Assembly: GCF_001570565.1 (NCBI RefSeq)
Contig: NZ_BBXE01000017.1
Coordinates: 1-64,000 of the forward strand
DNA length: 64,000 nt
Reading direction: 5' to 3'
DNA from: Herbidospora yilanensis
GTDB taxonomy: Bacteria > Actinomycetota > Actinomycetes > Streptosporangiales > Streptosporangiaceae
The notes under the pieces are model-generated. The model searched no databases. It saw only the letters and a program-made list of their open reading frames with translations, and was not told where the DNA came from. Positions 53,833 through 64,000 of the stretch are shown here, piece by piece (position 1 is the first letter of the stretch; each line of letters begins with the position of its first letter). A program made the position numbers and the translations under genes.

Positions 53833-54414
53833 TCACCGAGAGGTTCGGCCAGGTGAGAAGAGGCAGCCCAGCGCCCGCCGGATGACGTCGGCGAACGGCT
53901 GGTTCGCGGCCGGGGTCAGCCAGTGTCTGCCCGCCACCCTGATCGCGGCGACCACCGCCGCCGCCGTGACCTCGGGGCAGAGGCCGGTCTCCCCGCCGCG
54001 TTCCGCGATCGCCTCGGCCAGCGACGCCTCCCCCACCGCGAAGGCGCGCAGCGCCTCGCCCTCCAGCTCGGGGGTCAGCATGATCATGCGCAGCCCGGCC
54101 CGGTCGGGCTCGGGGTCGGTGAACAGGCCGACCATCGCCTCGGTCACCGCCACGTCGAGCGGCTCGCCGGCGGGCCGGGCGCGGAGCGCGTCGCCCGCGC
54201 GCCGCGACTGGTCGGCCTGCCCGCCGCAGATGGCCTCTTCCCTGCTGGAGAAGTAGTTGTTGTACGTCCGGGGCGACACCCCCGCCGCCGAGGCGATGTC
54301 GTTGACCCGGACGAGCGCCAGGCCGCCGGGGCCCTGTTCGACGGCCAGGCGCAGCGCGGCGGTGGTGATCGCCTCGCGGGTGGCCTGCCTGTTGCGGGCC
54401 CGCAGGTCGCTCAT
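53833..54414 (-). CDS. TetR-family regulator (MftR-like), probable controller of the assembly-line promoter
   Basis: A 193-aa TetR protein: ARNRQATREAITTAALRLAVEQGPGGLALVRVNDIASAAGVSPRTYNNYFSSREEAICGGQADQSRRAGDAL, the NYFSSREEA motif typical of MftR-like actinobacterial regulators, C-terminal domain ELEGEALRAFAVGEASLAEAIAERGG. It starts 18 bp after the stop of the TIM-barrel gene in the same direction, so the two share a transcript. Best candidate to bind the twin TTGCGT(G/C)TCACGCA sites ahead of that operon and the PKS-NRPS gene. Confidence 0.92.
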   Translation of the reverse strand: MSDLRARNRQATREAITTAALRLAVEQGPGGLALVRVNDIASAAGVSPRTYNNYFSSREEAICGGQADQSRRAGDALRARPAGEPLDVAVTEAMVGLFTDPEPDRAGLRMIMLTPELEGEALRAFAVGEASLAEAIAERGGETGLCPEVTAAAVVAAIRVAGRHWLTPAANQPFADVIRRALGCLFSPGRTSR

Positions 54415-54432: not shown

Positions 54433-55437
54433 TCACGCGACGCCCGGGGATGTGCGTCCGTAGACGTCGGCGAGGGCGTGGAAGGACGCCTTCGGCTCCC
54501 ATCGCAGGCCGTGGCCGGGCACCTTCACCACGCCGGGGCTCGCGACGTCGAACTCACCCGGCAGGTCCCACCGCGCGAAGGTGTACCAGAACGCCGCGTC
54601 GACCCCCTCGCCGTCGAGCACCTCCAGCACCTCGCGCAGGTAGCGGGCCTGCTCCTCCTCGTCGCGCACGACCTCCCGGGTCAGCCGCGCGGGCGGGCCG
54701 TGGTCGCTCCACTCCACGATCGCGTCGCCGCGCTCCCCCGCGTCGGCCGCGCCCCGGAAGGTCACGCAGCCGAACTCGTTGACCGAGACGGGCTTGCCGA
54801 GCGCCCGGCCCTGCTCGACCAGCGCGCGGACCGACTCGCGGTAGGTCGCGGCGGTGGCGGCCGACCGGTATCCGGCGTCGGTGGCGACGATGTCGAAGAT
54901 CGTCCAGTCGACCCGCTCGAACGGCAACGACGAGTAGGTCACGCGCCCGCCGAACCGTTCGCGCACCAGCTTCACCGCCTCGGCGAGGAACGTGTTCACC
55001 TTTCCGGCCACGTCCGCGACGCCCTCGCCCAGCCGGGGCAGCCGCTCGCGCAGCGTCTCCCCGGGCAGGAAGCCGGTGGTCATCATGCTCACCTCCGATC
55101 CGGTGACCATGACCACCTCGGCGCCGTCCCGCCGCAGCCTCTCGGCGTGGTCGGCGCAGCCGGCGATGACGTCGAGCAGCTCGGCGGCCGTGATGTCGCA
55201 GGTGAACGGGGACAACCAGACCTCCAGCCCGGCGCGGGCGGCGGCGGTGGCGGCGGTCTTCAGCCGGTCGGGGTACTGCCCGCTGATCCGGACGGCCGTG
55301 CAGTGCAGCTCGTCGCGGATGACCCGCATGTCGCGGGCGACCTCGGCGGGGTCGAAGGGCTCGTGGGTGGTGTGCCCGGCGGCGCGGGCGTGGACGTCGG
55401 CGAAGCCGGTGTCGTAGTTGACGCCTCTCGTCTGCAT
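54433..55437 (-). CDS. TIM-barrel (glycosidase-like) protein of unknown substrate
   Basis: A 334-aa cytoplasmic protein: MQTRGVNYDTGFADVHARAAGHTTHEPFDPAEVARDMRVIRDELHCTAVRISGQYPDRLKTAATAAARAGLEVWLSPFTCDITAAELLDVIAGCADHAERL, VVMVTGSEVSMMTTGFLPG (Glu), ITYSSLPFERVDWTIFDIVATDAGYR, GKPVSVNEFGCVTFRG (Glu at the nucleophile position of clan-A glycosidases) and VDAAFWYTFARWDLPGEFD. Two suitably placed Glu residues support a glycoside-hydrolase-like fold, but no GH family is certain. ATG 55437 has no Shine-Dalgarno. Divergent from the PKS-NRPS gene and co-transcribed with tetR. Confidence 0.75.
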   Translation of the reverse strand: MQTRGVNYDTGFADVHARAAGHTTHEPFDPAEVARDMRVIRDELHCTAVRISGQYPDRLKTAATAAARAGLEVWLSPFTCDITAAELLDVIAGCADHAERLRRDGAEVVMVTGSEVSMMTTGFLPGETLRERLPRLGEGVADVAGKVNTFLAEAVKLVRERFGGRVTYSSLPFERVDWTIFDIVATDAGYRSAATAATYRESVRALVEQGRALGKPVSVNEFGCVTFRGAADAGERGDAIVEWSDHGPPARLTREVVRDEEEQARYLREVLEVLDGEGVDAAFWYTFARWDLPGEFDVASPGVVKVPGHGLRWEPKASFHALADVYGRTSPGVA

Positions 55438-55458: not shown

Positions 55459-55490
55459 TTGCGTGTCACGCACTATTTGCGTCTCACGCA
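55459..55490. promoter_or_regulatory. Tandem TetR-type operators TTGCGTGTCACGCA / TTGCGTCTCACGCA
   Basis: Two 14-bp near-identical sites (55459-55472, 55477-55490), 18 bp centre to centre, each with TGCGT...ACGCA dyad symmetry (the first is TGCGTG-T-CACGCA, perfect). They sit between the divergent TIM-barrel/tetR operon and the assembly-line gene, 56 bp before its ATG. Confidence 0.75.
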
Positions 55491-55545
55491 ATTCACGGGT
55501 TCTCTGTCATCATGTCCGGAAAATGCGGAGAGCCGGGGGCGAACG

Positions 55546-58500
55546 ATGCTGCTTGATGTGCTGCTGGGGGCGGCCGAGGACGCGCCCGGCCAGGTCGTCG
55601 TGCACGTGCGCGGCGACGGGAGCGAGCGGGTCGTCACCCACGCCGAGTTACGCGACCAGGCGCTGCGCGCCGCCGGCGCGCTGCTGCGAGAGGGGATCGC
55701 GCCGGGCACCCCCGTCCCGCTGGTCGCCGACCGGAGCGAGGACTTCCTGCCCCTCTTCTGGGGGCTGGTCGCGGCCGGGCTCGTGCCGGTCCCGCTGGCC
55801 CCGGATCCGCGAAGGGTCCGGCCGGTGTGGGAGTTCCTCGGCCGCCCGCCGATGGTGGCCGACGAGCCGCCGATCGCGGCGGCGCGCACGTTCTCCCCCG
55901 CCGCTCTGCTGCGGGGGGAGCAGGCCACCGATCTGCCGGTACGGTCCCCGCACGACGTGGCCTTCCTCCAGTTCTCCTCCGGCAGCACCGGAGACCCGAA
56001 GGGCGTCGAGCTCACCCACGCCGCCGTCGTGGCGAACCTGGCGCAGATCCGGGCCGCCGCCGCGATCACCCCCGCCGACGTCTCGGTGAGCTGGATGCCC
56101 TACTTCCACGACATGGGCCTGATCGGCACCCATCTCGCGCCGCTGGCCGCGCGGATCAAGCAGGTCAAGTTGTCGCCGCTGGCCTTCGCGAAGCGCCCGG
56201 CGCTCTGGCTGGAGACGGCGGCGCGGCATCGGGCCACCGTGCTGACGGCGGCCAACTTCGCGCTGGCGCTGGTCGAGCGGCGGGTGCCCGACGAGGTGAT
56301 CGCCCGGCTCGACCTGTCGAGCGTGCGGCTGATGCTGGTCGGCGCGGAGCCGATCTCGCCGCGCGTCTGGCGCGCCTTCCTGGCCAGGACCGGGCTGCCG
56401 CCCCACGTGCCGCAGCCGGTCTACGGGCTGGCCGAGGCGACGCTCGCGGTGACCGTGCCGCCGCCGGGCGCCACGGCCGAACCGCTGGTGCTCGACCGGC
56501 GGGCGCTGGCCGAGGGCCGGGTCGAGTTCACCTCGGCCGGGCCGCACGCGGTCGAGCTCATGGACGTCGGCGTGCCGGTGCCGGGCTGCGAGGTCCGCAT
56601 CGCCGGGGACGACCGGGTCGGGCCGATCCAGGTGCGGGGGCCGCAGGTCGCCCGCGGCTACCACCGCGACGCGCCGTTCGGGACCTGGCTCGACACCGGC
56701 GACCTGGGGTTCCTGCACGAGGGCCGGTTGTGCGTCACCGGCCGGGCCAAGGACGTCGTGTTCGTCAACGGCGCCACCTTCCACGCCGCCGACCTGGAGG
56801 AGGTGGCGGCGGGCACGGTGAGGGGCGCGGTCGCGGTCGTCGGCGCGTCGGGGCCCGAGGGCGAGCGGGTCGTGGTGTTCGTCCAGGCGCCCGCCCCGGC
56901 CGAGGTCGCCGGCGAGGTCCGGCGGCGGGTCGCGGAGGCGTGCGGGCACGACGACGTCACCGTCGTGGTGGTGCCGTCGACCGCGTTCGCCCGCACGACC
57001 AGCGGGAAGCTGCGCCGGTCGGTGCTGCGGGCGCGGTTCGAGGCCGGGGAGTTCACCCCGGCCCCGCGCTCCCGGGCCGACGTCGAGGCGGCCGTCGCGG
57101 CGATCTGGGCCGAGGTGCTCGGCGTCGAGGCCGTGGGGCCGCACGACCGGTTCGCCGCGCTCGGCGGGTCGTCGCTCAAGGCGATGCAGGTCCTGGCCGC
57201 CGTGGAGGACCGGTTCGGGGTGCCGCTGCGGCCCTCCGACGTGCGCGACCACGACACCGTCGCCGCCCTCGCCGCCCACCTGCTGGCCCCGGCCGCGCCC
57301 GCACGCCGCCCGGCCCGGACGAGCGGCGGATCATCGGTGGCGATCGTCGGGATGGCCTGCCGGTTCCCCGGCGCCGACACCCCGGAGCGGTTCTGGGAGC
57401 TGCTCGAAAGCGGCTACGACGCCATCACCCCCGTCACCCGCTTCGATTACCCGGGCCACGGCGGGTTCCTCGACGACCCGGCCCTGTTCGACGCCCCCTT
57501 CTTCGGCCTGTCCGACGAGGAGGCCGCCGCGACCGACCCGCAGGCCCGGCTCCTGCTCGAACTCGCCCACGAGGCGCTCGAACGGGCCGGGTACGCGGGC
57601 CCGCGCCGCCTCGGCCGCCGGGTCGGCGTGTTCGCCGCCGCCGGGGAGAGCGGCTACCGGGAGATCCTCGAAGCCGCCCACGGCGCGGGCGGCCTCCCGG
57701 CCGAGGCGCTGACCGGGAACCTGCCGAACCTGCTGGCCGCCCGCGTCGCCCACACCCTCGACCTGACCGGCCCGGCGCTGACCGTCGACACGGCCTGCTC
57801 GTCGGCGCTGGTCGCCCTCCACCTGGCCCGGCGCGGCCTCCAGCAGGGCGAGTGCGACCTCGCGGTGGTGGCGGGCGTCAACCTCACCCTCACCCCGGCC
57901 GGTTACCGGGCCCTCGGGAAGACGCGGGCGCTCTCCCCGACCGGACGGTGCCGCGCGTTCGGCGCGGCGGCCGACGGGTTCGTGCCGGGCGAGGGCGGCG
58001 CGGCGCTGGTGCTGGCCCGGCTCGACGACGCGGACCGGTCGGGTGACACCGTCCTGGCCGTCGTCAGGGGCACCGCCGTCAACAACGACGGCCGGTCGCT
58101 CAGCCTGCTCGCGCCCAACCCGCTCACCCAGCGCGAGGTGATCACCCAGGCGTACGCGGAGGCGGGGGTCGACCCGGCCGAGGTCACCTACGTCGAGGCC
58201 CACGGGACGGGCACCCCGGTCGGCGACCCGATCGAGTTGCGGTCGCTGCGGCACGCCTTCCCGACCGGCACCCGGCTGCTGGGCTCGGTGAAGACCAACG
58301 TGGGCCACCTGCTGAACGCCGCCGCGATGCCGGGCCTGGTCAAGGTCGTGCTGGCGCTGGGGCGGAAGAAGGTGCCGCCGTCGCTGCACGCCGCTCCCCC
58401 CGCCGGCGGCCTCGACGGGTTCACGGTCCCGGACCGGCCGGTCGAGTGGACCGCCCCGCGGACCGCCGGGGTCAACGCGTTCGGCTTCGGCGGCACGAAC

Positions 58501-61500
58501 GCGCACGCCATCCTGTCCGAGGCCCCCGCCCGCGAGGTCGAGCGCACGCCCCACGAGGGGCTCAGCCTGCTCACGCTGTCGGCGTGGAGCGCGCCCGCGC
58601 TGCGCCAGGCCGCCGGCGACCTGGCCGCCTTCCTCCCCGGTCACGACGAGGGCGACGTCTGCGCATCGGTCGCGCTGGCCCGCGACGAGGGCCCGCACCG
58701 CCTCGCGGTCGTCGCCGGGGGCGACCTGGCCGAGCGGCTGACCACCGCCGAGGGGCGGGTGGCCGGGCCGCGTCCCCGGCTGGTGTTCCTGCTGCCCGGC
58801 CAGGGCGCGCAGGGCTCCGGCGCGGACCTCTACGCGAACGCGCCGGTGTTCCGGCAGGTCATCGACGAGGCCTCCGATCTGGTCGGCCCGGTCGGCGGGC
58901 GGACCCTGAAGGACTGGTGCGCCGGCCCCGCCGCCGGGGTGGTCCGCACCGACGTGGTGCAGCCGCTCCTGGTCGCGTACGGGATCGCGCTCGCCCGCCA
59001 GCTCCACGCCTGGGGCGTGACACCGGACGCGGTCGCCGGGCACAGCGTGGGCGAGATCGCCGCCGCCTGCGTGTCCGGCCGGATCGGCCTCGCCGACGCC
59101 GTCACGTTCGCGGCCGAACGCGGCCGGTTGATGCACGAGTTGTGCCCGCCGGGCGCGATGGCGGTCGTGCCCGGCGACGCCGACCTGCCGCCCGGGGTGA
59201 CGGTGGCGGCGGTCAACGCCCCCGGCCAGGTCGTGGTGGCCGGGCCTCCGCGGGCCGTCGAGGCGCTCGGCGGACGGCGGCTCGACGTCGCGCGGGCGTT
59301 CCACTCGCCGCTGATCGATCCGGCGCTCGACCCGCTGGCGGAGGCCGCGGGCCGGATCACCGTACGGCCGCCGGAGATCCCGCTGCTCAGCACCGTCACC
59401 ACCACGTGGAACCCATCCTTCGACGCGGCCTACCTGCGCGACCACGCCGCCCGGCCGGTGCGGTTCGCCGACGCGGTCGGCCGGTTGGTGGCCGAGGGGT
59501 ACGACACGTTCCTGGAGCTCGGGCCGTCGCCCGCGCTCGGCGGCGCGGTGCGGGCCGCCTCGGGCGCGGTGACGACGATGGCGGCCGGGCACGAGGGCGG
59601 CGCGCGGGCGCTGCTGGAGACCGTGGGCGTGTTGTGGCAGCGCGGCCTGCCGATCGACCGCACCGCCATGGACCGGGGGCGGGCCCGGGTGGGCGTGCCG
59701 ACGTATCCGTTCCAGCGCCGCCGCCACTGGCCGTCTTCGCGGCTGCCGCACCGGCTGGTCTGGCGGGAGCGGCCGGTCGACGGTCCTCGGGTGACGGTCG
59801 GCAGGCTGGCGGATGCGCTCGAAGCGCCCGGCGTGACCGTGCTCACCGGTGGAGACGTCACGGTCGTCGTGGCCGGGGCGCCCCGGCGGGCCGCGTCGGC
59901 CGAGGCGCTCGACGCCGTGCACCGCGAGCTGACGGCGGCGCTCGTCGCGGTCGACGCGGCGCGGGTGCTCGTCGTCACCCAGGACGTGCACGTCGACCGG
60001 CCCGAGCAGGCGATCCTCGAAGGGCTCGCGGCGGCGCTGGCCCAGGAGACGGGGACCGAGGTCCGGGTCGCCGACCTGGCCTCACGGGAGCCCCTGGACC
60101 GGCGGGTCGCCGCGGTCGAGCGCGAGCTGGCCGCCCGGGGCCCGGGGCTCGTCGCCTGGCGGGAGGGCAGACGGCTGGAGCGGGAGCCGGAGGCGCTCAC
60201 GCCGGCTTCGCGGGAACTGCCGCCCGACGGGTGCTACCTGATCACGGGCGGCGCGGGCGGGGTCGGGGCGGCGCTCGCGCGGGATCTGGCCGACCGGGGG
60301 CGGCCCACGATCGTGCTGGCCGGGCGGTCGCCCCGGCCGCCCGCCGGGCTGCTGGCCGACCTGCGCTCCCGGGGCGCGACCGTCGACTACCAGGCCGCCG
60401 ACGTGTCGCGGGAGGCCGACGTCGAGGCGCTGCTCGCCCGGCTGCCCCGGCTCGACGGGTTGTTCCACGCCGCCGGGGAGGCGCGTCCCGGCGCGCTGCG
60501 GGGCGGCTCGCCCGGGGAGATCGTGGCGGGCATGGCGGCCAAGACCCGGGGCGGCCTGCTGCTCGCCGAAGGGCTGCGACGGCACGGGCTCACGCCGGTC
60601 GTGTGCGTGGCCTTCTCGTCGGTGTCGTCGGTGCTGCCCGGCCTGGCCGGGGGGCTCGGCGGCTACGCCGCCGCCAACGCCTACCTCGACGCGTTGTGCC
60701 GGGCCGAACGGGGGCCGTGGATCGCGGTGAACTTCGCCGCCTTCGCGGAGGTGGGCCTGGCCGCCCGCGCCGGGCTGACCCGGGGCGCGCTCGACCCGTC
60801 GGCGGCCCTGGCCGCGCTGCGCGGCGCGATCGGATCGGGCGCCGCGCAGGTGGTGGTGGCCGACCTGGCCGCCGTGCCGGAACCGGCTCCCGCGCGGCCC
60901 TCCGGTGACGTCCGCACGGTCGTCAGGCGGCTGGTCGGCGGCGCGCTCAAGCGCGACGACCTCGGCGACGACGAATCGTTCCTCAGCCTCGGGCTCGACT
61001 CGCTCACCGCCGTCGACCTGGTCAAACGCCTGGAGAAGGAGCTCGGCCGCACCCTGCCGGTCACCCTGTTCTTCGAGTTCCGCACGCTGCGCGAGCTGAC
61101 GGCCCACCTCGACGCCGACGGGCCGTTCCCGCTCACGCCGGTGCAGGTGGCCTTCCAGACCCAGCAGCGCCTCTACCCCGGGATCTCGGCGTACGCGCAC
61201 GTCCGGCAGACGATCACCGGCCCCCTCGATCCGTCCTTGCTGGACACGGCGCTGGGCCACCTCGTCGACCGGCACCCGATGCTGCGCCTGCGCGTCGATC
61301 CCGGCGGCACGCAGTCGGCCGGCCCGTCCACGCCCCCGTTCCTGGAGGTCCGCGACACCGGCGACCTCGACGCCCTGGAGCGCGACCTCCGCAACCGGCC
61401 CTTCGACCTCACCAGGGAGGGCCCGCTGCGGGCGGTGCTGGCCCGCACGCCCACCGGGACCCACCTGGTGATCGTCGTCAGCCACGTCGCCGCCGACGGC

Positions 61501-64000
61501 TTCAGCCTGAACGTGCTCGGCGAGGAGCTCTGGACCGTCTACACCGCCCTCTCACGCGGGACCACCCCGGTCCTGCCGCCGCCGGTCACGACCTTCGCCG
61601 AATACGCCGCCGCCTCGGAACCCGCGAGCGCGGCCGATCTGGCGTACTGGACCGAGGTGCTGACGACCACCCCCGGCCTGCGCCTCCCCTACGACGGCGA
61701 CCCGGACGGGCCGCCCCTCGACTCCGTCCAGGTCACGCTGACGGGCGACCGGTCGGCCGCCCTGCGGGCGACGGCCGCCGCGCACGGCGTCTCGCTGTTC
61801 CACCTGCTCCTGGCCGCCTACGTCCGCTGCCTCGCCCGCTGGACCGGCGGCGACACGGTCGCGGTGAACGTCGCCAGGGCGCGCCGCGAGATCCGCCTGC
61901 CGGGCGTCGACCGCCTGGTCGGCCCGCTGGCCGACACCCTCCCGCTGCTCGCCGCCGTGCGCCCCGGCGAGCCGCTGCCGGAACTGGCCGCGCGGCTGCG
62001 GGACCGCTGGCGGGACGCCGAACGCCACGCCACCCCGGCCGCCGCCGACCTGGCCCGGCTGCTGCCCGCCGCGGGCGGCCCGCGCACGGCGAGCCCGGCG
62101 TCGTTCAGCTTCGCCCGCTTCCCGGCCGCGACCGGACCCGGCTGCCCGGTGGAGGCCGTCGTGACCGCCGCCGCGACCGCGTCGGCCGCGACCAGGCTCG
62201 GCCTGCTGTGCTGGGAGTCCGGCGGCGCGTTGCGGTTCTCGTGGAACTTCCCGTCGCGGCTGTTCCGCCGGGCCACGGTCGACCGGCTGGCGGCCGAGCA
62301 CCTGGCCGAGCTCTCCGTCGCCGAGCTCTCCGTCGCCGGGAGGCCCGGGCTGGCGGCCCGGTTGCGCGCGCGGTTCCGCGCCACCCCCGACGCCGTCGCC
62401 GTCGACACCGGCACCACCCGGCTGACCTACGCCGAGCTCGACCGGCGCTCCGCCGCGCTGGCCAACCGGCTGCGCGGGGCCGGCGACCTGATCGGGCTGA
62501 TGACCGAACCCGGGATCGACACGGTCGTCGGCCTGGTCGGCATCGTGCGCGCGGGCGCGGGCTGGGTGCCGCTCGACGCCTCCCATCCGGAGGCCCGCCG
62601 CCGCGACCAGCTCGCCCGCTGCGGGGTGACCACGGTCGTCACCGACACCTCGGGCGAGGGCTCCTACGACGCCCCGGACGACACCCCGGACGTCTCCCCC
62701 GACGCGACCGCCTACGTCATCTTCACCTCCGGCTCGACCGGCCGCCCCAAGGGCGTGCCCATCACCTACCGGTCGGTGGAGAACTACCTCGACTGGGCGC
62801 TGGACACCTTCGGCTACCACGCGGGCGACCGGCTGGCGCAGACGGCGTCGATCTGCTTCGACGCCTCGGTCCGGCAACTGCTGGCCCCGCTGCTGGCCGG
62901 GGCGACGGTGGTGACGTTCACACGGGAGGAGGTGCGCGACCCCGGCCTGCTGGCCGGGCGGCTCCGCGACGTCACGGTGTGGAGCTCGGTGCCGAGCCTG
63001 TGGTCGCGGCTGCTGGACCTCGGGCCCGTCGAGCACCGGCTGCGCTGGATCCACGTCGGCGGCGAGGCGCTGCCGCCGGAGCACGTGCGCCGCTGGTTCG
63101 ACCTGTACGGCCCCGGCGCCCGCATCGCCAACCTCTACGGCCCGACCGAGTCGACCATCAACACCACCTGCCACATCCTCGACGGGCGCCCCGCCGACGA
63201 CGTCACCGTCATCCCGATCGGCCGGCCCGTCGCGGGCACCTTCGTCGAGGTGGACGACTCGGGCGAGCTCCTCATCGCCGGGGCCGGTCTCACCCCCGGC
63301 TACCTCGACGACCCCGGCACGGCGTTCGTCGAACGCGACGGCGTGCGGTGGTACCGCAGCGGCGACCGCGTCCGGCGCGACGCCAACGGCGACCTGGTCT
63401 TCCTCGGGCGGCTCGACGCGCAGGTCAAGGTGCGGGGCCACCGGGTGGAGCCGGGCGAGGTCGAGGCGGCGTTCCACACGCATCCGGACGTCGCGCGGGC
63501 CGCCGTGGCGCTCACCGGCGAACGGCTGACCGCCTTCGTCGAACCCCGGCCCGGCCGCGACCCCGACCCCGTCGCGCTGCGCGGGCACCTGGGGGCGACG
63601 CTGCCCGCGTACATGATCCCGGCCCGGATCGAGATCGTGCCCGCGCTCCCGCAGACCACCACGGGCAAGATCGACCGCCGCGAGCTCGGCGGGACCCCGC
63701 CCGCGACCCCGACCGAGGAGCTGGTCGCCGAGGTGTGGCGCGCGCTGCTGGAGGTGCCGCGGGTGTCGCGTGAGGACGACTTCTTCGCGCTCGGCGGCGA
63801 CTCGATCATGATCCTGCGCGTGTTCGAGATGCTCGGTGAGCACATCGACCCGCTGCCGCGCCCGACGGTCGTCTACGAGCACGGCACGCTGGCCGCGCTG
63901 GCCCGGGCCATCGACGACGCCGAGCCCGCCGCCTTCCTCCCCCAGCCGGCCGGCGGGCCGTTCCCGCTGACATCCGCGCAGCGCGGATTCCGGCTGGCCG
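55546..64000 (+). CDS. Hybrid FAAL-PKS-NRPS assembly-line megasynthase (3' end outside window)
   Basis: One uninterrupted frame from ATG 55546 to the window end, at least 2818 residues. Order: fatty-acyl-AMP ligase-type adenylation domain (1-500; FSSGSTGDPKG about 143, FHDMGLIG about 187, TSGKLRRS about 485). ACP (phosphopantetheine Ser543, LGGSSL). Ketosynthase (597-1010; Cys751 in DTACSS, His886, His921). Acyltransferase (from 1080; GHSVGE Ser1167, RAFHSP, suggesting malonyl-CoA). Ketoreductase (cofactor GGAGGVG about 1568, Tyr1707 in GYAAAN, no LDD motif); no DH or ER. ACP (Ser1819, LGLDSL). Condensation (1862-2290; SHVAADG, the second His kept). Adenylation (2290-2710; FTSGSTGRPKG, FDASV with the alpha-amino-binding Asp, YGPTEST, TTTGKIDR). 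PCP (Ser2753, LGGDS). Start of another condensation/epimerisation domain (FPLTSAQRGF). Predicted: a fatty acid is activated, extended by one ketide reduced to a 3-hydroxyacyl, and joined to an amino acid. Product unknown. Confidence 0.95.
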   Translation, partial: MLLDVLLGAAEDAPGQVVVHVRGDGSERVVTHAELRDQALRAAGALLREGIAPGTPVPLVADRSEDFLPLFWGLVAAGLVPVPLAPDPRRVRPVWEFLGRPPMVADEPPIAAARTFSPAALLRGEQATDLPVRSPHDVAFLQFSSGSTGDPKGVELTHAAVVANLAQIRAAAAITPADVSVSWMPYFHDMGLIGTHLAPLAARIKQVKLSPLAFAKRPALWLETAARHRATVLTAANFALALVERRVPDEVIARLDLSSVRLMLVGAEPISPRVWRAFLARTGLPPHVPQPVYGLAEATLAVTVPPPGATAEPLVLDRRALAEGRVEFTSAGPHAVELMDVGVPVPGCEVRIAGDDRVGPIQVRGPQVARGYHRDAPFGTWLDTGDLGFLHEGRLCVTGRAKDVVFVNGATFHAADLEEVAAGTVRGAVAVVGASGPEGERVVVFVQAPAPAEVAGEVRRRVAEACGHDDVTVVVVPSTAFARTTSGKLRRSVLRARFEAGEFTPAPRSRADVEAAVAAIWAEVLGVEAVGPHDRFAALGGSSLKAMQVLAAVEDRFGVPLRPSDVRDHDTVAALAAHLLAPAAPARRPARTSGGSSVAIVGMACRFPGADTPERFWELLESGYDAITPVTRFDYPGHGGFLDDPALFDAPFFGLSDEEAAATDPQARLLLELAHEALERAGYAGPRRLGRRVGVFAAAGESGYREILEAAHGAGGLPAEALTGNLPNLLAARVAHTLDLTGPALTVDTACSSALVALHLARRGLQQGECDLAVVAGVNLTLTPAGYRALGKTRALSPTGRCRAFGAAADGFVPGEGGAALVLARLDDADRSGDTVLAVVRGTAVNNDGRSLSLLAPNPLTQREVITQAYAEAGVDPAEVTYVEAHGTGTPVGDPIELRSLRHAFPTGTRLLGSVKTNVGHLLNAAAMPGLVKVVLALGRKKVPPSLHAAPPAGGLDGFTVPDRPVEWTAPRTAGVNAFGFGGTNAHAILSEAPAREVERTPHEGLSLLTLSAWSAPALRQAAGDLAAFLPGHDEGDVCASVALARDEGPHRLAVVAGGDLAERLTTAEGRVAGPRPRLVFLLPGQGAQGSGADLYANAPVFRQVIDEASDLVGPVGGRTLKDWCAGPAAGVVRTDVVQPLLVAYGIALARQLHAWGVTPDAVAGHSVGEIAAACVSGRIGLADAVTFAAERGRLMHELCPPGAMAVVPGDADLPPGVTVAAVNAPGQVVVAGPPRAVEALGGRRLDVARAFHSPLIDPALDPLAEAAGRITVRPPEIPLLSTVTTTWNPSFDAAYLRDHAARPVRFADAVGRLVAEGYDTFLELGPSPALGGAVRAASGAVTTMAAGHEGGARALLETVGVLWQRGLPIDRTAMDRGRARVGVPTYPFQRRRHWPSSRLPHRLVWRERPVDGPRVTVGRLADALEAPGVTVLTGGDVTVVVAGAPRRAASAEALDAVHRELTAALVAVDAARVLVVTQDVHVDRPEQAILEGLAAALAQETGTEVRVADLASREPLDRRVAAVERELAARGPGLVAWREGRRLEREPEALTPASRELPPDGCYLITGGAGGVGAALARDLADRGRPTIVLAGRSPRPPAGLLADLRSRGATVDYQAADVSREADVEALLARLPRLDGLFHAAGEARPGALRGGSPGEIVAGMAAKTRGGLLLAEGLRRHGLTPVVCVAFSSVSSVLPGLAGGLGGYAAANAYLDALCRAERGPWIAVNFAAFAEVGLAARAGLTRGALDPSAALAALRGAIGSGAAQVVVADLAAVPEPAPARPSGDVRTVVRRLVGGALKRDDLGDDESFLSLGLDSLTAVDLVKRLEKELGRTLPVTLFFEFRTLRELTAHLDADGPFPLTPVQVAFQTQQRLYPGISAYAHVRQTITGPLDPSLLDTALGHLVDRHPMLRLRVDPGGTQSAGPSTPPFLEVRDTGDLDALERDLRNRPFDLTREGPLRAVLARTPTGTHLVIVVSHVAADGFSLNVLGEELWTVYTALSRGTTPVLPPPVTTFAEYAAASEPASAADLAYWTEVLTTTPGLRLPYDGDPDGPPLDSVQVTLTGDRSAALRATAAAHGVSLFHLLLAAYVRCLARWTGGDTVAVNVARARREIRLPGVDRLVGPLADTLPLLAAVRPGEPLPELAARLRDRWRDAERHATPAAADLARLLPAAGGPRTASPASFSFARFPAATGPGCPVEAVVTAAATASAATRLGLLCWESGGALRFSWNFPSRLFRRATVDRLAAEHLAELSVAELSVAGRPGLAARLRARFRATPDAVAVDTGTTRLTYAELDRRSAALANRLRGAGDLIGLMTEPGIDTVVGLVGIVRAGAGWVPLDASHPEARRRDQLARCGVTTVVTDTSGEGSYDAPDDTPDVSPDATAYVIFTSGSTGRPKGVPITYRSVENYLDWALDTFGYHAGDRLAQTASICFDASVRQLLAPLLAGATVVTFTREEVRDPGLLAGRLRDVTVWSSVPSLWSRLLDLGPVEHRLRWIHVGGEALPPEHVRRWFDLYGPGARIANLYGPTESTINTTCHILDGRPADDVTVIPIGRPVAGTFVEVDDSGELLIAGAGLTPGYLDDPGTAFVERDGVRWYRSGDRVRRDANGDLVFLGRLDAQVKVRGHRVEPGEVEAAFHTHPDVARAAVALTGERLTAFVEPRPGRDPDPVALRGHLGATLPAYMIPARIEIVPALPQTTTGKIDRRELGGTPPATPTEELVAEVWRALLEVPRVSREDDFFALGGDSIMILRVFEMLGEHIDPLPRPTVVYEHGTLAALARAIDDAEPAAFLPQPAGGPFPLTSAQRGFRLA

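Follow-up and report, generated by a model that had tools for sequence, protein, structure and literature searches.

Starter proteins that hold a fatty acyl-AMP ligase (FAAL), a carrier, one polyketide synthase (PKS) module and a nonribosomal peptide synthetase (NRPS) part on one chain include MycA (mycosubtilin) and ItuA (iturin). Proteins of this type have an aminotransferase domain and hand their product on to further NRPS proteins. The TAD domain of the carmabin pathway, a marine cyanobacterial lipopeptide pathway, is represented in the PDB by entries 9e4s, 9e4u, 9e4x, 9e50 and 9e56. TAD domains and FAAL-fused PKS-NRPS starters are both already known. Here we describe a megasynthase gene of Herbidospora yilanensis with the order FAAL-PKS-NRPS-C-TAD, which begins near the end of a 64,000-nucleotide stretch of contig NZ_BBXE01000017.1 (the window). 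In comparison with MycA and ItuA, the Herbidospora protein has a KR and a TAD-like domain and stands alone, and no aminotransferase family was found among the Pfam matches of the whole megasynthase. Its terminal domain resembles the carmabin TAD in predicted fold, in profile score (E = 1e-60), in aligned cysteines and in the motifs GxGS[IV]G and DDSxPxC. It differs in being actinobacterial and 27-30% identical, in following an intact C domain where the other domain follows a PCP, and in belonging to a locus of one gene that has just one amino acid module.

A domain likewise ends the synthetases VatR (vatiamide) and HcaD (hectoramide B), and we liken it to the Herbidospora domain through its description alone, in the available part of PMC10949194. 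According to that excerpt, the authors believe that this domain, downstream of a PCP, off-loads the product by terminal amidation, and they consider it possibly related to that of carmabin. More distant likenesses are to the cyanobacterial acyl-ACP reductase (AAR; PDB entries 6jzq, 6jzy and 6jzz), which is similar in predicted fold, to the AAR-like reductase domain of TamH and to the N-terminal region of PigE; the accessible text of PMC9594044 reports a catalytic cysteine for AAR and proposes one for TamH. The literature searched (titles and abstract openings, with most subscription journals and all of bioRxiv outside it) gave no description of a solitary FAAL-PKS-NRPS-C-TAD synthase and no paper on the carmabin TAD structures.

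Extent and domain architecture of the megasynthase

The H. yilanensis genome comprises 7.85 Mb in 67 contigs, and the window covers positions 1-64000 of a 337 kb contig (C17), the numbering of which continues that of the window. The megasynthase frame opens on the forward strand at ATG 55546, which is preceded by GGGGGCGAACG, and stays open to the window end. On the contig it reaches a stop codon at C17:66148-66150, giving a protein of 3534 residues whose gene ends 2.15 kb beyond the window. A first-pass annotation of the window had described a fused FAAL-ACP-KS-AT-KR-ACP-C-A-PCP protein with its KS, AT, KR and carrier residues present. The single open frame and the Pfam domains bear this out, and the C and A residues are present as well and conserved among relatives. 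The gene start that it gave, 55459, is where an operator-like palindrome begins rather than the gene, and the condensation-type domain in which the protein seemed to end is where the window cuts it. The extension of the contig that had been suggested as a check completed the frame, revealing outside the window a TAD-like release domain, which is the protein's most unusual feature, and a true C2-TAD end at 66150.

Pfam matches over the whole protein comprise AMP-binding (two stretches), ketoacyl-synthase, acyltransferase, KR, three PP-binding matches and Condensation (three stretches across two C domains). With the motif positions they give the order AMP-binding, carrier, ketoacyl synthase, acyltransferase, KR, carrier, condensation, AMP-binding, carrier, condensation. 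Conservation was assessed with relatives from a scan of named genomes, which yielded 130, of which 80 were kept; one locus (L108) gave no frame, leaving 79 that could be read. Residue counts refer to the window protein together with the relatives covering at least 70% of each domain.

All domains lie on the forward strand. The FAAL domain (55546..57060, residues 1-505; identified by Pfam, the NF006624 model and a PDB sequence search) is followed by ACP1 (57058..57315), with its serine (Ser543) in 65/65, and by the KS (57328..58635), with Cys751, His886 and His921 each in 65/65. The AT (58783..59580) has Ser1167 and His1253, both found in 64/64, and the KR (60229..60711) has Lys1666, Ser1692, Tyr1707 and Asn1711 (66/66), with no LDD motif and no tryptophan seen in the stretches inspected. 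ACP2 (60922..61110) carries Ser1819 (48/48). In the NRPS part, C1 (61126..62292) has His1980, Asp1984 and Gly1985 (75/75), the A domain (62368..63669; Pfam and motif register) has the code DARSIVLINK, and the PCP (63709..63915) has Ser2753 (76/76). The C2 domain runs from 63943 to about 64995, being cut by the window end at 64000, and its HHxxxDG motif (residues 2918-2924) is kept in 76/76. The TAD-like domain (residues 3218-3534, C17:65197-66147) is recognized by profile and predicted fold. Comparison of the window gene with three Herbidospora orthologues in seven segments gave dN/dS values of 0.21-0.49, which suggests purifying selection on all parts, C2 and TAD included. The megasynthase is a complete stand-alone assembly line with an architecture conserved across several genera of actinobacteria.

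The FAAL-like nature of the ligase is upheld by two kinds of match. NF006624 (fatty acyl-AMP ligase) scores 345 bits, below the model cut-off of 600, and 18 solved structures match with E of at most 1e-20, six of them named acyl-AMP or acyl-adenylate ligases. The rest go by broader names (acyl-CoA synthase, FadD28 CoA ligase, polyketide synthase, saframycin synthetase, McyG), and several of these we take to be FAALs; the first-ranked and third-ranked matches, 6ulx and 6ulw, presumably represent a keto-acid A domain. The stretch SPLAFAKRPALWL resembles what we take to be the FAAL-specific insertion. Together the matches support a ligase closest in sequence to FAALs rather than to CoA ligases or amino acid A domains.

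Alignment of the AT, also proposed as a check, places it with the malonyl type, of which HAFH is the motif: it reads RAFH here and [RHC][AG]FH among relatives (n = 64), with 40 R, 23 H and 1 C at the first position and 57 A and 7 G at the second, so that the form is [RH]AFH apart from the single C and the GFH of 7/64. The A-domain code is nearly invariant, DARS[IV]VL[IV]NK being found in 72/74 sequences by motif register (36 DARSVVLINK, 23 DARSIVLINK, 10 DARSVVLVNK, 3 DARSIVLVNK, 1 DARSILLVNK and 1 DARSAVLINK), with Asp235, Arg239 and Asn331 invariant. We know of no exact match for this code. It can be likened to what we take to be the acidic-substrate codes of microcystin synthetases, with arginine at 239, and the amino acid loaded on the PCP is probably acidic.

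The terminal TAD-like domain and the preceding C2 domain

No Pfam family matches the last ~310 residues of the megasynthase at E of at most 0.1. A single-sequence search matched residues 3218-3534 to 9e4x and 9e4s with E = 1e-29, and a profile of 28 relatives matched 9e4x (E = 1.1e-60) and 9e4s (1.3e-60), followed by PigE (4ppm, 6e-11) and the S. elongatus AAR (SeAAR, 1.4e-5); the profile scores were 209 bits to the carmabin TAD against 27 bits to SeAAR. The fold was predicted for the H. solisilvae domain, which is 91% identical (pLDDT 89, pTM 0.89). The predicted fold gives TMq values of 0.84-0.89 to ten chains whose PDB title is 'TAD from Carmabin Biosynthetic Pathway', compared with 0.72-0.75, at 19-21% identity, to AAR. 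Given the predicted fold and the sequence similarity, the terminal domain groups with the carmabin TAD and is remotely related to AAR. It does not lie directly downstream of the last PCP, C2 standing between them, which we regard as a difference of architecture and not of family.

Titles of the carmabin TAD entries name NAD and NADH complexes, and one of them describes dephospho-CoA attached to Cys2238 by a disulfide bond. In the profile alignment the cysteine of the ASC motif (Cys3489, the candidate nucleophile) and that of the PHC motif (Cys3444) both fall on carmabin TAD cysteines. GxGSIG and an aspartate at the end of strand 2 (LLCD; Asp3388), typical of NAD sites, are invariant in 28/28. 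The ASC cysteine and DDSFPHCFD are both present in 79/79 readable relatives. The conservation of DDSFPHCFD is partly the result of selection, because the scan was seeded with LTGYGFDV and [VL]VDDSFPH; the ASC cysteine was not a seed.

A canonical AAR identity was ruled out. TIGR04058, the AAR model, gave no match to the C-terminal piece at E of at most 0.1, and in a genome search found nothing at the megasynthase locus and one weak place on another contig, yet it matches S. elongatus. SeAAR has DGGYP where the TAD relatives have DDSFPHC, and it has no aspartate at the end of strand 2. Among NCBIfam models, PigE NF053554 alone matches the C-terminal piece at E of at most 0.1 (E = 1.5e-14), with 53 bits against a cut-off of 850.

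TAD-like domains were also seen in other settings. One ends a 1565-residue NRPS from another genus of the same family (genome G213, L038:7670-12367) with the order TubC-C-A-PCP-TAD-like. Stand-alone TAD-like proteins, with the motifs or close forms kept, are found on two plasmids. That of Pantoea stewartii pCN101 (L150:7291-24567), in which the cysteines are also kept, adjoins a KS protein, a MupA-type luciferase-like monooxygenase and two NRPS proteins; that of Streptomyces sp. NBC_00470 (L151:11815-17340) lies near a discrete ACP and KS, in a region that is possibly a small lipid pathway.

The order C2 then TAD follows the PCP in all 76 loci that show a PCP. The best PDB sequence match of C2 is 8z0q, 'Special condensation domain in NRPS' (HtmB2-CT; E = 1.3e-21), with the tyrocidine PCP-C also near, and by predicted fold the dehydrating C domain of AmbE is among the nearest. 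These structures point to no single reaction; C2 may couple or modify the chain, or do no more than hold it in position. The C2-TAD arrangement from a two-domain model was left aside (pTM 0.50).

In the linker before the TAD (C17:65034-65266; L009:10034-10266) we observed a tandem array with units of 57 and 81 bases and 83-90% matches, which repeats the first TAD motif (VGYLPPFGQVR..LAGDA) about three times in the H. yilanensis genome. The orthologues compared have one clear copy, with perhaps traces of more in L025, and this difference suggests that duplication has lengthened the linker.

Proposed route and competing explanations

Our tentative preference, held at somewhat less than even confidence, is that this one gene encodes everything needed to make an N-(3-hydroxyacyl)-amino acid, with TAD-type release, most likely as the amide. 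The FAAL would load a fatty acid onto ACP1, and KS-AT-KR would add one malonyl unit and reduce it to give 3-hydroxyacyl-ACP2. C1 would then join this chain to one amino acid, probably acidic, on the PCP. The TAD would take the chain from the PCP onto Cys3489 beside bound NAD(H) and release, most likely, a primary amide, with C2 acting at the last step by holding, modifying or coupling the chain. The architecture, the key residues and their conservation, the relationship to the TAD and the solitary setting are observed, and the TAD fold comes from a model. The steps up to the TAD off-loading follow from known domain chemistry; the substrate classes, the order of reactions and the amide release are those that we infer. 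This retains part of the first-pass prediction of a 3-hydroxyacyl lipopeptide start: the FAAL-type ligase, the single reducing PKS module and the 3-hydroxyacyl-amino acid start are supported, while its view of the protein as the loading part of a bigger lipopeptide cluster is not.

Several points weigh against this preference. The A-domain substrate is no more than probable, being predicted from the likeness of the code to others. An intact C2 stands between PCP and TAD in 76/76 and finds no explanation in the favoured model, and the VatR/HcaD domain follows a PCP. Cys3489 is, by alignment, only a candidate counterpart of the Cys2238 of the carmabin structures, and the TAD-like domain of the L038 NRPS is without the ASC cysteine, being either inactive or working otherwise. 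The TAD is also related, more distantly, to an aldehyde-making acyl-ACP reductase. Lastly, in the available part of PMC10949194 the amidation is a hypothesis, with its enzymology not yet studied.

The chief competitor, possible but on the doubtful side, is a true thioester reductase, in which the chain would pass from the PCP to Cys3489 and NADH would release an N-(3-hydroxyacyl)-amino aldehyde, alcohol or cyclic form. The fit of the predicted fold to AAR and the PigE match noted above are consistent with it, as is the AAR-like domain of PtTamH, which the accessible text of PMC9594044 classes as AAR and which feeds an aldehyde-using transaminase domain. The missing TIGR04058 match, the wide gap in profile score between SeAAR and the carmabin TAD, and the DGGYP and strand-2 differences of SeAAR argue the other way. 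As the TAD relationship is far closer than that to AAR, and the NAD-type site differs from that of AAR, the amide is favoured over the aldehyde, if only modestly. Release by C2 onto a free amine or hydroxyl, with the TAD editing, proof-reading or modifying, appears unlikely. Its invariant HHxxxDG and its best match to a 'special' C domain would suit such a role, and a terminal-module C domain is described as adding putrescine in glidonin in the part of PMC10587159 available, but no clear task would be left for a TAD with conserved cysteines and an NAD motif, and the upstream and downstream comparisons showed no conserved amine-making gene nearby. Very improbable is the idea that the protein does the loading for a larger lipopeptide cluster whose other members act in trans. 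The genome does hold many other condensation domains; against this, C17 has no other Condensation or ketoacyl-synthase match before 129710, no neighbour is consistently common across genera, the S. fungicidicus counterpart (described below) is a single coding sequence between unrelated genes, and the protein is itself equipped with a release domain at its end.

A decidedly speculative extension, to which we attach a low probability, is that the gene provides a widespread one-gene actinobacterial signal. The near-invariant A pocket and all the active sites would then have every carrier making almost the same small 3-hydroxyacyl-amino acid amide or aldehyde, gated in Herbidospora by the adjacent TetR protein via a double palindrome and released by C-TAD in a new redox-neutral, NAD-cycling manner. 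Because the pathway consists of one gene and can be expressed whole, its product is directly testable, and the megasynthase, with its near-invariant substrate code, would offer an actinobacterial system in which to learn the outcome of a TAD (amide or aldehyde) and the role of the C domain preceding it.

Distribution, locus context and promoter region

The 80 kept relatives are mostly from Streptomyces, the others coming from Herbidospora (6), Nonomuraea, Microtetraspora, Actinoplanes, Couchioplanes, Ornithinimicrobium and Nocardioidaceae. The series from KS to TAD is complete in 64/79 and incomplete in 15, ten of which lie at contig ends. A FAAL was seen in 47/79, and many fetched stretches begin inside or after it. 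In L047, L059, L079, L103 and L118 upstream domains are absent from the frame although the record continues; these copies are broken, wrongly sequenced or different. In L047 (Streptomyces himastatinicus) the domains before the A domain are absent from the frame and the FAAL occupies a separate 493-residue frame, a layout reflecting sequencing error or decay. Genome searches found the TAD domain in 7/7 genomes of the genus Herbidospora, in 10/297 genomes of the family at E of at most 1e-6 (one weakly), and in 43/295 Streptomyces-type genomes (about one in seven of those sampled; contig coordinates that match L055 suggest that the genus includes S. regalis and is therefore Streptomyces). At E of at most 1e-10 it was found in 26/396 genomes of the phylum, 22 of these matches being weak and in open frames of 281-458 residues.

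Nothing read beyond the window supports the expected remainder of a cluster there. Downstream of the megasynthase lie a gene for an NAD(P)H-binding protein on the opposite strand and an HxlR regulator; the next Condensation match on C17 is at 129710, 63 kb on, and the next ketoacyl-synthase match at 146636, with neither family before the megasynthase. The whole genome has 41 Condensation matches, including the two of this gene, the others being for example at C17:129-139 kb and on C14, C20, C24, C25 and C46. Among downstream frames of seven sampled loci, no frame is represented by relatives in more than 14 of the 81 loci, counting the one it comes from. The upstream comparison covered 15 regions, which varied in length from 6 to 20 kb, with the frames of ten listed. 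Upstream frames shared across genera (antisense frames inside the FAAL, parts of ABC transporters, regulators or kinases, an aldo/keto reductase and one unassigned) each recur in at most four other regions. No neighbour consistently common across genera was found in these comparisons, in which open reading frames were filtered by codon GC in unequal regions, so that real shared genes may be missed. On a plasmid of S. fungicidicus a 3925-residue protein, WP_121549379.1, 62% identical over 3461 aligned positions, is encoded between genes for a WGR protein and a TerB protein, both unrelated. Contig extension, the whole-genome Condensation and ketoacyl-synthase search and the neighbour comparison rule out a cluster edge. 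From the context on C17, the neighbour comparisons and the S. fungicidicus locus, we conclude that this is a solitary biosynthetic gene.

Upstream, a divergent gene on the reverse strand (54433..55437, with a start chosen in this analysis) is weakly GH113-like (E = 3e-4, below cut-off), and beyond it lies a TetR-family regulator (53833..54414, reverse strand). Both recur in four other Herbidospora upstream regions compared.

Between the divergent gene and the megasynthase are two operator-like palindromes 18 bases apart: TTGCGTGTCACGCAC at 55459-55473, with one mismatch between its arms, and TTGCGTCTCACGCAA at 55477-55491, which is perfect. Exact matches to TTGCGTNTCACGCA number two in the 7.85-Mb genome, both at 55459-55491; with up to one mismatch, 0.05 would be expected in the window, and two matches arose in 1/100 shuffles. 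Similar pairs, judged by eye, precede the gene in 5/7 Herbidospora, L031 and L032 being without them, and a perfect palindrome at that place was flagged by script in the window only. The neighbouring TetR protein would be the natural candidate to bind the palindromes. About 30-45 bases before the ATG we also note a CTCTGTCATCATGTCC-like stretch in 7/7 Herbidospora, the two without palindromes included, L029 and L032 each differing by one base; it is perhaps the core promoter.

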